Positions 14,179-18,589 of a DNA stretch of 44,523 nt are shown piece by piece. How positions within the stretch are numbered: the stretch's first letter is position 1; the number at the start of each line of letters is the position of its first letter. The translations under genes were made by a program, and so were the position numbers. This stretch comes from Planctomycetaceae bacterium. GTDB lineage: Bacteria; Planctomycetota; Planctomycetia; Pirellulales; Pirellulaceae. The stretch is taken from NCBI GenBank assembly GCA_007121535.1, contig SKKK01000330.1, positions 1-44,523 of the forward strand, read 5' to 3'. Under the pieces are notes generated by a model. The model worked only from the letters and a program-made list of their open reading frames with translations. It was not told the origin of the DNA and ran no database searches.

Positions 14179-14910
14179 CTACATCAGAAAATCGCCCATC
14201 ATCTGGAACCCGATCAAAAAAATGGCCGCATCGATCAGCAAATGACTGATCCACGGACCATACAAAGATCCGCTGCGCTGGTACAACCAAGCCCAAAAGG
14301 CTCCCCCGACAGCAACGGAAACGGAGAAAAACCAAGTCCACGGCGAAAACCAACCGAAATAGGTCGTCAGCAGAATCACGTGGTGCGAGGCAAAAGCGAT
14401 GCTGGATAAGAGGATGGCCCAGTTTACGGACACGTATCGACGCAACCGACCAAAGACGTACCAACGCCAGTAGTATTCTTCCAGCAACGAGTGAACGAGA
14501 CTGTAGAAAATGCCCAAGGCCAGGTAGCCGACCAACGAATCGACACCCAATTCGATAACCTTGGTGCGGATTTCGTCTGCAGCCGCTTGCAGCTCGCCGC
14601 GAGGCTCCAAGACCTGGTGCCAGCCGACGATCATCGTCACGAATACCAGCAGCCCGAAACCGAATCCTCCGGATACGCCTCGCCACGTGGCTGCGATCCA
14701 GCCAAGCCGTTCACGGCAGATCAACCCCACCCAGACGACCGGCAGCGCGAATTGGACGCTCTTGCCCACAATAGCCACCCCGCGTTGCAAGGCCGGGTGG
14801 CTGCCGGACAACAGGACGAAATACACCCACGTGATCACCAAGGGCAGCACCATCGCCACCCCCAACACGATGCGATCGCCTCGGGCGAAGCCGCTCGGCT
14901 TAGCGCTCAC
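14179..14910 (-). CDS. CPBP family intramembrane glutamic protease
   Basis: 243 residues from a GTG at 14910 that overlaps the previous stop (GTGA). The protein has about seven hydrophobic segments. The Abi/CAAX protease motifs are in order: LLEEYYWRW (EExxxR), FASHHVILL (second motif with His) and ISHLLIDAA (final His and Asp). Members are inner-membrane proteases, in bacteria mostly of unknown substrate. Its position between the acidic protein and the H4MPT genes, with 4-bp junctions on both sides, implies co-transcription, but no functional link to the pathway is known. Confidence 0.85.
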   Translation of the reverse strand: MSAKPSGFARGDRIVLGVAMVLPLVITWVYFVLLSGSHPALQRGVAIVGKSVQFALPVVWVGLICRERLGWIAATWRGVSGGFGFGLLVFVTMIVGWHQVLEPRGELQAAADEIRTKVIELGVDSLVGYLALGIFYSLVHSLLEEYYWRWYVFGRLRRYVSVNWAILLSSIAFASHHVILLTTYFGWFSPWTWFFSVSVAVGGAFWAWLYQRSGSLYGPWISHLLIDAAIFLIGFQMMGDFLM

Positions 14911-16130
14911 GATCGACGCCCGCGACCTCGGCCCCGTCCCCGGTTTCCATTTCCGGGGTTCCGAGCCCGAGATTCCATATTGTTTGAAATCACCAGCGCG
15001 ATCGCTTCGCTCCACGTGGGGATCTTGCGATGCTTGACACTCGCCACTGAAAGATCATCGTCTTCGTCGTCGGACATTTCATCGTGCTGTTCGTCATCCA
15101 GGTCCTGGGCAGCATCGCTTTCTTCCGCCACGCCGGTCGACACTCGGACCGACTCTTGATCGCCGTCCGACGATTCATCTTCGGCGGTTTCGCCTGCTTG
15201 TCGCGTTACGCCGTCCCCGGCAGTTCTCTTGCGGCGACGGCGACGGCGGCGACGGCGGCGAGGCTCATCGCCGCCTTCCGCCTCGGCGGCCGGAGCATCG
15301 GCGTCCGCCGGACCCTCGTCGCTGTCAAGCAGCTTGAACTCGGCGTCATCCTCATCTTCTTCACTCGGCTCTTCATCCGCTTCTTCATCCTCATCTTCGC
15401 CAAAGTCGGGTACTTCCTCGCGTCGTTCGGCGACGGCCGGAGATGGAGAAGCGGCATCGTCGTCCCACGCCTCGTCAAAAATCCGATCGAGAGCCCCCGG
15501 TGCGTCGAGCGAAAAACTCTCGTCTTCGAACAGAGAAGGCGGCTTGCGCGAAGCAACGTCAGACGTTGCCTGCGACACATCGTCAGACACGTCGCTGCCT
15601 GGATCGTCATCGCTATGTTCGTCAGACTCGACCACCACAGCTTCGACCACAGCCTCGACCTCGATGTCCCGTTCTCCAACGACGGCTTGCGACTCCGACA
15701 AAATGGCCGACGGCGATTGGTCCTCATCGGCACCCTCGTCAACCGGCTCGGCTTCGAGTTCCGGCTCATCCGCCGCCAATTCCGGTTCTTCTTCGGGCAC
15801 CTCGATACCCAGTTCTCCCGCCAAGCCTGCCCAGTGGGTCGCATCGACCGCGGCGGATTTGGGCCGCGGGCGAGACCGCTCCCGCTGCTTGGGCAAAGCG
15901 GGCGCTTCCGTTACTTCGACTGTGTCCGCCTCCTGCAAGGAGGATAGCTCGTCGCTGGACGTCCGATCATCCCCATCCTCCAAGCGTGCCGCAGGTGACG
16001 GCGAGTCGCCCACAGTTTCACCCGAATCTTCACCCGTTTGCTCTTCTGGCGGCTCGGGCTCTGGCGGAACACTGACATCCAGCAGCAGAGCCAACGCCTT
16101 CCAGTGGTCCTGGGACTTCGAATCACTCAC
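14907..16130 (-). CDS. Acidic disordered protein with poly-Arg tract and RG-rich tail
   Basis: 407 residues from a GTG at 16130 with GAGGA about 7 bp upstream; the frame continues to 16226 but without a better start. Most of the chain is Asp/Glu/Ser-rich and predicted disordered. Two copies of a short motif occur: DHWKALALLLDVSVPPEPEP near residue 8, and THWAGLAGELGIEVPEEEPE near residue 97. A run of ten Arg (then KR) follows near residue 308. The C-terminus has a folded-looking KIPTWSEAIALVISNNMESR and then an RGRGRGR tail. Such basic RG tails often bind nucleic acid. I do not recognise a named family. Confidence 0.75.
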   Translation of the reverse strand: MSDSKSQDHWKALALLLDVSVPPEPEPPEEQTGEDSGETVGDSPSPAARLEDGDDRTSSDELSSLQEADTVEVTEAPALPKQRERSRPRPKSAAVDATHWAGLAGELGIEVPEEEPELAADEPELEAEPVDEGADEDQSPSAILSESQAVVGERDIEVEAVVEAVVVESDEHSDDDPGSDVSDDVSQATSDVASRKPPSLFEDESFSLDAPGALDRIFDEAWDDDAASPSPAVAERREEVPDFGEDEDEEADEEPSEEDEDDAEFKLLDSDEGPADADAPAAEAEGGDEPRRRRRRRRRRKRTAGDGVTRQAGETAEDESSDGDQESVRVSTGVAEESDAAQDLDDEQHDEMSDDEDDDLSVASVKHRKIPTWSEAIALVISNNMESRARNPGNGNRGRGRGRGRRS

Positions 16131-16238
16131 GATGGTTTCCTCGATATGTTCACAACGCCTGCAAGCCCTTCTGTAACGGAATATACCGATTCGTCGCCGA
16201 TTCGTAAAGGACGCAAGATATCCCATCCATCGGTAGGG

Positions 16239-17297
16239 CTATTTCCTGCCCAGCATGCGGTCTAAGGCGTCGGAAGTTTGGTATACAAGCGCGTCTGGAA
16301 AATGTTGGAACGGGTGGAAGTACTCGAAGGTCAAATACCCTCGATAACCTATCTTGTCCAGAGCCTCGATGACCGCCGGCCAGTTGGTCGTTCCATCCAG
16401 CAACGTACGGAACGTGTGCAGCGTGAATTCGTGCGTCCGCTGATCCCATTCCTTGAAGTGGATGTTCTTGATGCGTTTTCCCAGGATCGGAATCCAATGT
16501 TCCGGGAACTGGTACTGCATGATATTGCCCGTATCAAAATGCACTTGGACATGCGGGTCATCGAACTGGTCGACGAAAGCCACCATTTCTTCCGGGCTGA
16601 ATAAAAACCCGTTGGCGAAGATGTTTTCCATATTCAGGTACACCCCGGCCTTGGTCGCCAGCGGCAGCAGATGCTCGATGGCTTGGCGAGCACGCTGGTG
16701 GCACACGTCGCTGGGAACCGGCGGCACGTCGTCCAGCCAGGGCACGTACACGGCCCCGGGGACGATCAGCAAGTCCTCGGTCCCCACCAGTTGGGCCGCT
16801 TGAATCATTTGACGAGCCAGTTGCAGCCCTTGTTCTCGGCGTTCGGGATCTTCGTGCGTCAAACTGTAGGGCCAGAACAAGAATGAACAAACACCGCTGA
16901 TCGCAATACCCACCTTTTCGGCGAGCCGGCCAATCCCCCGGATTTCGTCTGGCGTCGATTCTGCAGAGAATTCGCCATCCAAGGCAAAGTTGATCTCGAC
17001 ACCGTCGAAGCCCGCGTCCTTGGCCAATCGAAAGCAGTCTTCCAGCGACATCTTGTCGGGGAATGGGAACGCCCACAGATTGATCGATTTTTTCATATCA
17101 TATCGGCGCGGCGGTTTCGCCGCCGCCGTATCGGGAGCTACGGAAGGTTGGCTTTCCGGGTCCGCGCCAAGGCCCTGGCGGCCGAGGAAGGCAGCACCAA
17201 AAGCAGCCGAATACGCCAGCCACTCGCGGCGCCCTAAACCTGCGGGAACGGACGAATCGCTACTGCGGATGCTTCGGTTGGTTCGAGAATCGGTCAT
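16239..17297 (-). CDS. Secreted TIM-barrel sugar isomerase/epimerase-like protein
   Basis: 352 residues. The N-terminus holds a twin-arginine-like signal, GRREWLAYSAAFGAAFLG, at about residues 22-39, so export by Tat is likely. From residue 68 it is a xylose isomerase-like TIM barrel close to hydroxypyruvate isomerase: FDGVEINFALDGEFS, LLIVPGAVYVPW, LNMENIFANGF (metal Glu), VQVHFDTGN (Asp), KNIHFKEWD (His and Glu) and YLTFEYFHPF. Tat-exported members of this superfamily are common in planctomycetes, with unknown substrates. It precedes the 16130 gene by 108 bp on the same strand. Confidence 0.8.
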   Translation of the reverse strand: MTDSRTNRSIRSSDSSVPAGLGRREWLAYSAAFGAAFLGRQGLGADPESQPSVAPDTAAAKPPRRYDMKKSINLWAFPFPDKMSLEDCFRLAKDAGFDGVEINFALDGEFSAESTPDEIRGIGRLAEKVGIAISGVCSFLFWPYSLTHEDPERREQGLQLARQMIQAAQLVGTEDLLIVPGAVYVPWLDDVPPVPSDVCHQRARQAIEHLLPLATKAGVYLNMENIFANGFLFSPEEMVAFVDQFDDPHVQVHFDTGNIMQYQFPEHWIPILGKRIKNIHFKEWDQRTHEFTLHTFRTLLDGTTNWPAVIEALDKIGYRGYLTFEYFHPFQHFPDALVYQTSDALDRMLGRK

Positions 17298-17674
17298 GAT
17301 ATCCCCCCACTAAGATTGCTGGAAAAGCACGGCCTGCCAAACAATTCAACCATCGTATCGGCCAGCACTCCGTGTATCAAGGTATGCCGTTGAGCGATGT
17401 TCCCTGATTACGAAACGCCATCCGATTATACCGGAAAAAACCAGTCCTAACGCTTGTGAGCGGAGAATTTCCATATTTGGCGGATTGACCTTCGCGCTAC
17501 AGGCATGGTACAATTGAGCCGGAGATTGCAGCCTATTTGTCGAGATGTAGCCGAGTCCACACGGGCTTTGCTCATGCTGCCAGCATTTTTCCACGTTTGG
17601 ATTCGGTTCGGATGTCCCAGACCTTGGGGCCGATCTTTGGTTTTTTTGACCCTCAATTTTCAAGGAACCTAATC
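17298..17674. other. Intergenic region between divergent genes
   Basis: This stretch separates the minus-strand isomerase-like gene from the plus-strand DUF1559 gene. I see one good sigma-70-like promoter (17485-17514) with a leader of about 150 bases, and no gene or repeat. Confidence 0.5.
17485..17514 (+). promoter_or_regulatory. Sigma-70-like promoter for the DUF1559 gene
   Basis: TTGACC (17485-17490) and TACAAT (17509-17514) are separated by 18 bp. Transcription would begin near 17521, leaving a leader of about 154 bases before the ATG at 17675. Confidence 0.6.
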
Positions 17675-18589
17675 ATGTTACTTTCACGCGACGGTCTGTC
17701 GAACCAGCGGAAAGACTCGGGATTCACCCTGGTGGAACTCCTGGTGGTGATCGCGATCATCGGCGTTTTAGTGGCACTGCTGCTGCCTGCGGTACAGGCT
17801 GCTCGCGAAGCAGCTCGGCGGACGCAATGCACCAACAACCTGAAGCAGTTGGGCTTGGGAATGCACAACTATCACGACATTCACGGCCAGTTTCCGTTGC
17901 CTGGGATGGTTGCCAACCACCTGGGTTGGAACGCCTCGATCCTGCCTCAGATCGAGCAGGGGCCCCTTTACGACCAGGTTGATTTCAACCAAGCCTCGAT
18001 GGGGCAATTCAATTCGCGGCATTTGCCATTGTCAACAACTGCCGTCGATGCGTATTTGTGCCCGAGCAGCAGTGCGGAGACGTCGCTAATGCCGACAACG
18101 GAAGGTGGACAACGCGTGTACACGATGCATTATCACGGAATCCTTGGACCTTACGGTACGAATCCTTCGACGGGTCAGGATTACCGATGTGTCAACATGA
18201 CGCAGGCTTTTGGCGGCGAATGCCAGCAGGGAATTATGTGGCAATGGGGTTCGAACATGCGGGACGTTACCGATGGTACTTCGAACACTTATCTTTTTGG
18301 CGAGATCTCGTGGAACGCGATGGACAAATATCGTCCTTGGCTGCGAGCGAAATACAGCGACCATCGTGGCGTTCTGTATCTGATCTCGAAGAATATCGAG
18401 TTTCCCATCAACTCCGGAAATGACACCAAGTGGAATGCTATCGCTTTCGGCAGCGAGCACCCGGGCGGCGCTCAGTTCGGCATGGCGGATGGATCGGTCC
18501 GTTTTGTTTCTGAGACCATTGATTGGGGCGTCTATTTGGCCACGGCCAGCAAGAATGGTGGTGAACCCGAAGGCGGCCGACAGAACTGA
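17675..18589 (+). CDS. DUF1559 prepilin-like protein
   Basis: 304 residues from ATG 17675 with AAGGAA at 17662-17667. Residues 14-35 are a type IV pilin-like N-terminus: a short basic leader, then GFTLVELLVVIAIIGVLVAL, with the prepilin peptidase cut after the first Gly and Glu at +5. The next segment, LLPAVQAAREAARRTQCTNN, and the C-terminal HPGGAQFGMADGSVRFV are the DUF1559 hallmarks. This family is massively expanded in planctomycetes and is thought to be exported or assembled by a pseudopilin system; its role is unknown. The lipoprotein gene follows 53 bp later, the usual arrangement. Confidence 0.93.
   Translation: MLLSRDGLSNQRKDSGFTLVELLVVIAIIGVLVALLLPAVQAAREAARRTQCTNNLKQLGLGMHNYHDIHGQFPLPGMVANHLGWNASILPQIEQGPLYDQVDFNQASMGQFNSRHLPLSTTAVDAYLCPSSSAETSLMPTTEGGQRVYTMHYHGILGPYGTNPSTGQDYRCVNMTQAFGGECQQGIMWQWGSNMRDVTDGTSNTYLFGEISWNAMDKYRPWLRAKYSDHRGVLYLISKNIEFPINSGNDTKWNAIAFGSEHPGGAQFGMADGSVRFVSETIDWGVYLATASKNGGEPEGGRQN

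Follow-up and report, generated by a model that had tools for sequence, protein, structure and literature searches.

RNase E of Pseudomonadota ends in a disordered, poorly conserved C-terminal half, in which short docking motifs are conserved and arginine-rich motifs bind RNA (PMC11964227, PMC4435900). In Pseudomonas, for example, the arginine-rich motifs of this tail bind RNA, which constitutes a tested precedent for both RNA binding and the formation of foci (PMC11964227). Rho also joins the degradosomes of alphaproteobacteria, as reported for Caulobacter and Rhodobacter (PMC5472812). Cyanobacteria possess RebA, a universal and largely disordered protein, whose C region binds the 5' sensor domain of RNase E, and which is a demonstrated inhibitor of this enzyme (PMC10783494). 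RebA is organized in conserved N-terminal, variable, acidic, and conserved C-terminal regions, and is reported to have no RNA-binding motif (PMC10783494). For planctomycetes, a review gives RNase E/G lengths of 509-588 aa, from which size no degradosome is predicted (PMC3071783).

The planctomycete protein analysed here resembles each of these systems in part. It shares with the C-terminal half of Pseudomonadota RNase E its predicted disorder, its poor overall conservation, and the combination of short conserved motifs with arginine-rich blocks (PMC11964227, PMC4435900), but it is encoded by a separate gene, lacks a catalytic domain, and carries tryptophan-containing (W) helices at both ends. 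By description, it is also similar to RebA: both are widespread, RebA being phylum-wide, and in both a mostly disordered chain has an acidic, variable central part between two conserved ends (PMC10783494). Unlike RebA, which is described without RNA-binding motifs (PMC10783494), the family members carry Arg/Lys-rich blocks.

The gene lies on the minus strand (14907..16130) of the window, i.e., the whole stretch of 44,523 nucleotides that was analysed. It starts with GTG at 16130 (ATCGTGAGTGATTCG), stops with TGA (14909-14907), and encodes 407 aa; an alternative, longer frame starts with ATG at 16226. The product is acidic, with 119 Asp and Glu, 33 Arg, 9 Lys, 4 Trp, and no Cys. A reading made from the sequence alone had singled out paired HW motifs, a run of ten arginines, and an RG tail, and all of these are present. 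The first W motif (residues 8-24, DHWKALALLLDVSVPPE; 16059..16109, minus strand) contains W10 and overlaps a helix predicted at 7-16, while the second (residues 98-114, THWAGLAGELGIEVPEE; 15789..15839, minus strand) contains W100, with a helix predicted at 99-106. The Arg block (residues 291-302; 15225..15260, minus strand) consists of exactly ten consecutive arginines at 291-300, followed by KR; as its codons mix CGC and CGT, it is not a plain codon repeat. Further on, a conserved helix close to the C-terminus (residues 366-392, KHRKIPTWSEAIALVISNNMESRARNP; 14955..15035, minus strand), which is the third of the protein and contains KIPTWSEAIALVISNN, is modelled at 373-390 with a pLDDT of about 90. 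It is followed by the RG-rich tail (residues 393-407; 14910..14954, minus strand), which ends as GNRGRGRGRGRRS (RGRGRGRGRRS).

A profile search with the HW motif, which had been suggested as a check, placed the protein's own two copies first and second genome-wide (E 3.5e-5 and 9.1e-4), the profile having been built from members of the order with the window protein included. The third-best match of the same genome (E 0.07) fell within a long open frame, and profile searches of this genome gave no convincing further protein with either the W motif or the C-terminal motif. A search for poly-CGN patterns was also tried, and turned out to be uninformative, as GC-rich simple repeats match on both strands. 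A scan of the genome contigs gave two loci only.

Searches against known families and structures returned no significant match for the 407-aa protein. Pfam gave two hits below the cut-off (E 0.57 and 0.91), and NCBIfam none up to E 10; NCBIfam likewise gave no match for one homologue from a second order (f21, see below). Against the PDB, the best match of the C-terminal profile had an E-value of 2.5, and that of the full profile an E-value of 0.022, for a stretch of NOB1 aligned to positions 255-349 of the profile, in the charge-rich middle; neither is significant. The top results of a literature search, conducted with limited wording on titles and the beginnings of abstracts, contained no description of this W-helix family or of the planctomycete RNase E insert. 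A study of essential genes in Planctopirus limnophila lists 108 essential, phylum-specific proteins of unknown function, to which the W-helix gene could not be linked (PMC10632474). The protein thus belongs to a family with neither a curated entry nor a solved structure, and its motifs are conserved in homologues; neither of the two outcomes named beforehand as contradicting the sequence-only reading was observed.

Within the window's order, a C-terminal profile built from 24 rows detected the protein in 181 of 196 genomes, and in 154 of the 159 good ones, with one match per genome except for two genomes with two; a search with a single sequence had matched 27 of 60 relatives. Sequence identity is low, with a mean of 19% per column and four invariant columns (W10, W100, W373, and N384) in 24 full-length homologues. 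The layout is nevertheless constant: all 24 possess two W motifs, one of them close to the N-terminus, an Arg/Lys/Gly-rich block, and a C-terminal W helix. The family signature, i.e., an N-terminal W..LA..L(F)G helix, an Arg block, an IP[ST]W.EAI-type helix, and a basic tail, was also found in 24 of 24 aligned order members, with small variations in the motifs.

Comparison with the orthologue of a congener (G002) gave pN values of 0.15 and 0.12 for the first and second W motifs, 0.07 for the Arg block, and 0.14 for the C-terminal island with its tail, versus about 0.42-0.56 for the three linkers; pS was 0.63-0.96, and 0.32 in the Arg block. Judging from these substitution patterns, constraint is concentrated in four islands, namely both N-terminal W helices, the Arg block, and the C-terminal helix with the RG tail, and the chain between them is fast-evolving. 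The AlphaFold2 model (24 rows, pTM 0.21) shows helices at 7-16, 99-106, and 373-390, and low confidence elsewhere. Short helices that are conserved while the rest of the chain is disordered are what docking peptides would show, which is consistent with the role that had been suggested for the HW motifs.

Homologues were also identified in the second order, f21. A profile built from the window's order only matched 14 of 392 genomes of the phylum: 12 from the same family or order, including the window's own genome, one from f21, in the same class (E 8.4e-8), and a single, weak one from outside the class (1.6e-4). This profile missed most f21 genomes. With an f21 protein as a query, 21 of 61 f21 genomes were matched. 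These proteins begin with DDSWExLAxDLFGI, with exceptions (the N-terminal motif lacks its W in L121, L125, and L126), carry YWDALxxWxWD in the middle, FGxGL motifs, and Arg blocks, and end in VPTWEEAISYL, followed by a basic tail. When the profiles of the two orders were compared, the C-terminal ones matched at 98.5% (E 3.3e-15), and the N-terminal, W-motif ones at 74.7% (E 2.6e-5). The structure model of the f21 protein, of low overall confidence, contains helices at the three islands (21-29, 197-203, and 397-407) and three four-residue turns. On the strength of these profile matches, the proteins of the two orders are homologous and have diverged.

A profile of both orders matched 130 of 248 genomes of the class: 28 from the window's family, 37 others from its order, 64 from f21 (for which, as the profile contains f21 rows, this is not independent evidence), and one, weakly, from f118. 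The 20 unmatched genomes listed, out of 118, all belong to f22, f118, f119, or f120, and the f121 genomes used in the RNase E comparison below were not among the matches. Absence from f22 and f118-f121 here means below profile detection, which a strongly diverged homologue could escape.

The same division of the class is seen in RNase E. RNase E/G (PF10150) occurs once in 39 of 40 relatives; in the window's organism, it is a separate gene of 540 aa (contig C690), and its catalytic domain is absent from the 407-aa protein. In a comparison of 148 genomes of the class, the RNase E open frame exceeded 700 aa in 4 of the 70 matched genomes of the window's order and f21, versus 69 of 73 in f22 and f118-f121, where, of the four short frames, two lie at the start of a contig and another was matched only in part. 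The insert of the S1 domain was measured as the stretch between the anchors FLHxSDV and IQxIFRRG. For this purpose, 55 RNase E loci were taken, 15 from the searches of relatives and 40 hand-picked from the 148-genome set, the latter comprising 20 from f22 and f118-f121 and 20 from the window's order and f21, including most of those with long frames. In the clade carrying the free protein, all 35 loci measured have an insert of 33-91 aa, with a median of 51, long open frames included. Outside the clade (L211-L230; f22, f118-f121), it counts 214-797 aa in 17 of 18 loci, two f22 rows being left out, as their reading frame did not show the first anchor; these inserts are acidic, often with Arg blocks. 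The f120 exception has an insert of 24 aa, but a tail of 309 aa. The 35 loci are labelled by clade, the free protein itself being detected in 28 of the 35 genomes; among the others, five had been searched with the weaker single-sequence query alone, which gave no match, the C-terminal profile missed G006, and G364 was missed by the order-only profile and the f21 query, and was not among the matches of the two-order profile.

In a midpoint-rooted tree of the RNase E core, the clade occupies one side of one branch (support 94/84, and 96% of bootstrap trees). The RNase E contrast is, therefore, one evolutionary event and not a statistic, and the short insert would correlate equally with every other gene confined to the clade. 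Outside the class, RNase E open frames of about 480-650 aa are common, beside longer ones, and the order-only profile, which missed most f21 genomes, gave a single weak match there. The data suggest that a short RNase E is a feature of some planctomycete lineages only, that sister lineages possess a large S1 insert, and that a near-universal protein of similar make-up is encoded separately in the orders with the short enzyme. At the position of the sisters' insert, RNase E of the window's order (L183-L197 and L231-L240) carries in most rows a conserved QY[FY]RQ-G--DP stretch, a possible candidate for a docking site.

The likeness between the free protein and the inserts of the sister lineages (f22, f118, f119, and f121) is one of make-up: both are acidic and of low complexity, with Arg blocks in many of the inserts, although the inserts sit within the enzyme and lack the conserved terminal helices. 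It extends to a short motif, FGxG[LI], which was found in 13 of 18 f21 homologues (18 matches, versus a mean of 0.04 after shuffling; two of the 20 loci were left out, as the gene was not picked up by the script) and in 12 of 17 long RNase E inserts (20 matches, shuffle mean 0.10). The other ORFs of the same loci contain 0.6-0.7 matches per 10,000 aa, versus 18.8 and 24.1 here. Five of the 17 long inserts lack the motif, and several lack Arg blocks. It is present in 4 of 41 homologues from the window's order (4 matches, shuffle mean 0.09), absent from the window's own protein, and found in none of 36 short RNase E inserts, the f120 row included. The three matches in acidic control ORFs of the f21 loci all fell in L173, a family member that had passed the filter. 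A six-frame scan covered ORFs of 150 aa or more (782,195 aa in total) from 64 loci, each with the family gene, or one of three rne genes of the clade, at its centre; the motif with acidic flanks occurred in 13 ORFs, all from this family (12 f21, one from the window's order).

A profile of the FGxGL motif, built from f21 proteins only, was then searched in 14 genomes, eight of which encode a long RNase E. RNase E was the best match in G654 and G661, the second in G665 and G650, and the third in G690, and was not among the matches listed for the three others (G649, G678, and G696). Rho, identified by NCBIfam, came first in G665, second in G654, and first in G083, an f21 genome whose Rho tail has ten consecutive arginines besides an FGxG[LI] motif. 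As the E-values (0.05-2 for RNase E, 0.005-0.3 for Rho) are weak one by one, the weight rests on the coherence of the protein names. Those of the remaining matches that were inspected were mostly unrelated-looking or shadow frames. In the window's own genome, no match was better than E 2.4, which agrees with the absence of FGxGL from most of its order's proteins. FGxGL is named here as a candidate address tag, common to RNase E and Rho. The likeness to scaffold regions of RNA-processing enzymes, which had been proposed from the protein's architecture, finds backing in this motif, common to f21 homologues, RNase E inserts, and Rho, and in the RNase E contrast.

Several other proteins were noted during these searches. 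Rho possesses, in L266, L281, and L275, an N-terminal extension with an acidic FGxG[LI], together with a ten-arginine run in L266. An NYN-domain protein (L271), which was the best match of the motif profile in G649, ends in DEDDFGAGLD, and a short protein (L268), the best match in the f21 genome G641, ends in DDFGAGLDDD.

The reading that is tentatively favoured, at slightly less than even confidence, is that the protein acts as a free-standing, disordered, RNA-binding scaffold of the RNA-decay and termination machinery (RNase E, possibly Rho) in Planctomycetia. The folded partners on which the W helices would dock are most likely RNase E itself or an RNase E-bound protein, and the Arg block and the RG tail would hold RNA. 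The acidic stretches would prevent the chain from closing up, and vie with RNA for binding to the arginines. The free protein would then do in trans what the S1 insert does within RNase E elsewhere, and it may form RNase E foci. On the best reading of the sequences, it would work like an RNase E scaffold, yet it is not a member of the RNase E family. A more specific scenario, in which the ancestor of the two orders gave up the RNase E insert, and a separate gene took over the insert's work, docks in trans through its W helices, and serves both RNase E and Rho, appears doubtful. If true, the protein would be a degradosome organizer across two orders, in bacteria for which enzyme size had predicted no degradosome. 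If RNase E and Rho are not the partners, what is left is a disordered protein family that is nearly universal in two planctomycete orders and has no curated entry. In practice, the planctomycete degradosome question is reduced to one pull-down.

A free protein would depend on W helices more than an insert would, and the inserts indeed contain few of them, although this argument is made after the fact. The conserved IPTW helix was found in none of the 17 long inserts, IPSW occurring once (L227), without the helix sequence that follows. Two of the 17, both from f22, contain a W..LA..L-like stretch, DSWDELATNL (L217) and GWDDVLADL (L214). The former is similar to the N-terminal motif of the f21 proteins, a likeness that may reflect either common origin or chance.

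The protein may instead bind RNA or DNA within another machine, such as the ribosome, the nucleoid, or a condensate, the RNase E contrast then being a coincidence of one lineage split. That this contrast is a single event and that the window's protein has no FGxGL are both compatible with such a role, as is the presence of mtaB, a tRNA methylthiotransferase gene, which in 9 of the 18 second-order loci (L163-L181) follows the family gene in the same orientation, at 17-342 bases in eight of them and 2,111 in one. This explanation is considered unlikely: second-order homologues have FGxGL in common with RNase E inserts and with some Rho tails, the motif being otherwise rare in the scanned loci.

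The protein could also be a trans-acting regulator, which binds RNase E with its conserved C-terminal helix and restrains it, as with RebA in cyanobacteria. The layout of RebA (conserved N-terminal, variable, acidic, and conserved C-terminal regions) is similar to that of the protein studied here, a likeness by description only, but the Arg/Lys-rich blocks of 24 out of 24 members have no counterpart in RebA as described; a regulator of this kind is considered improbable.

The scaffold reading draws little from the gene neighbourhood, and no rne gene was found near the family gene in 41 loci of the window's order and 20 of the second. In the window, the gene is preceded, on the same strand, by a TIM-barrel (AP_endonuc_2) gene (16239..17297, minus strand) and followed by a CPBP (Rce1-like) gene (14179..14910, minus strand), whose likely GTG start overlaps the stop codon as GTGA; both are local neighbours only. 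The run into protease and pterin genes had been taken as a functional clue; the overlap is real at this locus, but neighbours vary across the 41 loci of the order, and the neighbourhood, therefore, fails as a guide to function. The commonest neighbours are arginine-dihydrolase-type genes, absent at the window and at the congener G002. An ornithine cyclodeaminase-type cluster (TIGR00300, NPN-dependent) and a DDAH/arginine-dihydrolase-like cluster, each typed by one member, are each found upstream in 21 of the 41 order loci (L073-L112), nearly always divergent from the family gene. These genes could suggest that the expression of the protein, or its Arg-rich chain, serves arginine metabolism. 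Such a link is very improbable: the arginine-type genes are absent from about half of the loci, those of the window and G002 included, and are not recurrent in the second order, and the W helices would be left unexplained.

Finally, a functionless, low-complexity ORF, kept open by GC-rich codon bias, might be suspected, as open frames overlap abundantly on the two strands of the window, but it deserves practically no credence with island pN values of 0.07-0.15 versus pS values of 0.32-0.96, and with the protein present in 154 of 159 good genomes. Elsewhere in the window, an ORF on the plus strand (17537-18589) has a prepilin-type N-terminal stretch (GFTLVELLVVIAIIGVL), and is presumably of the planctomycete DUF1559 type.
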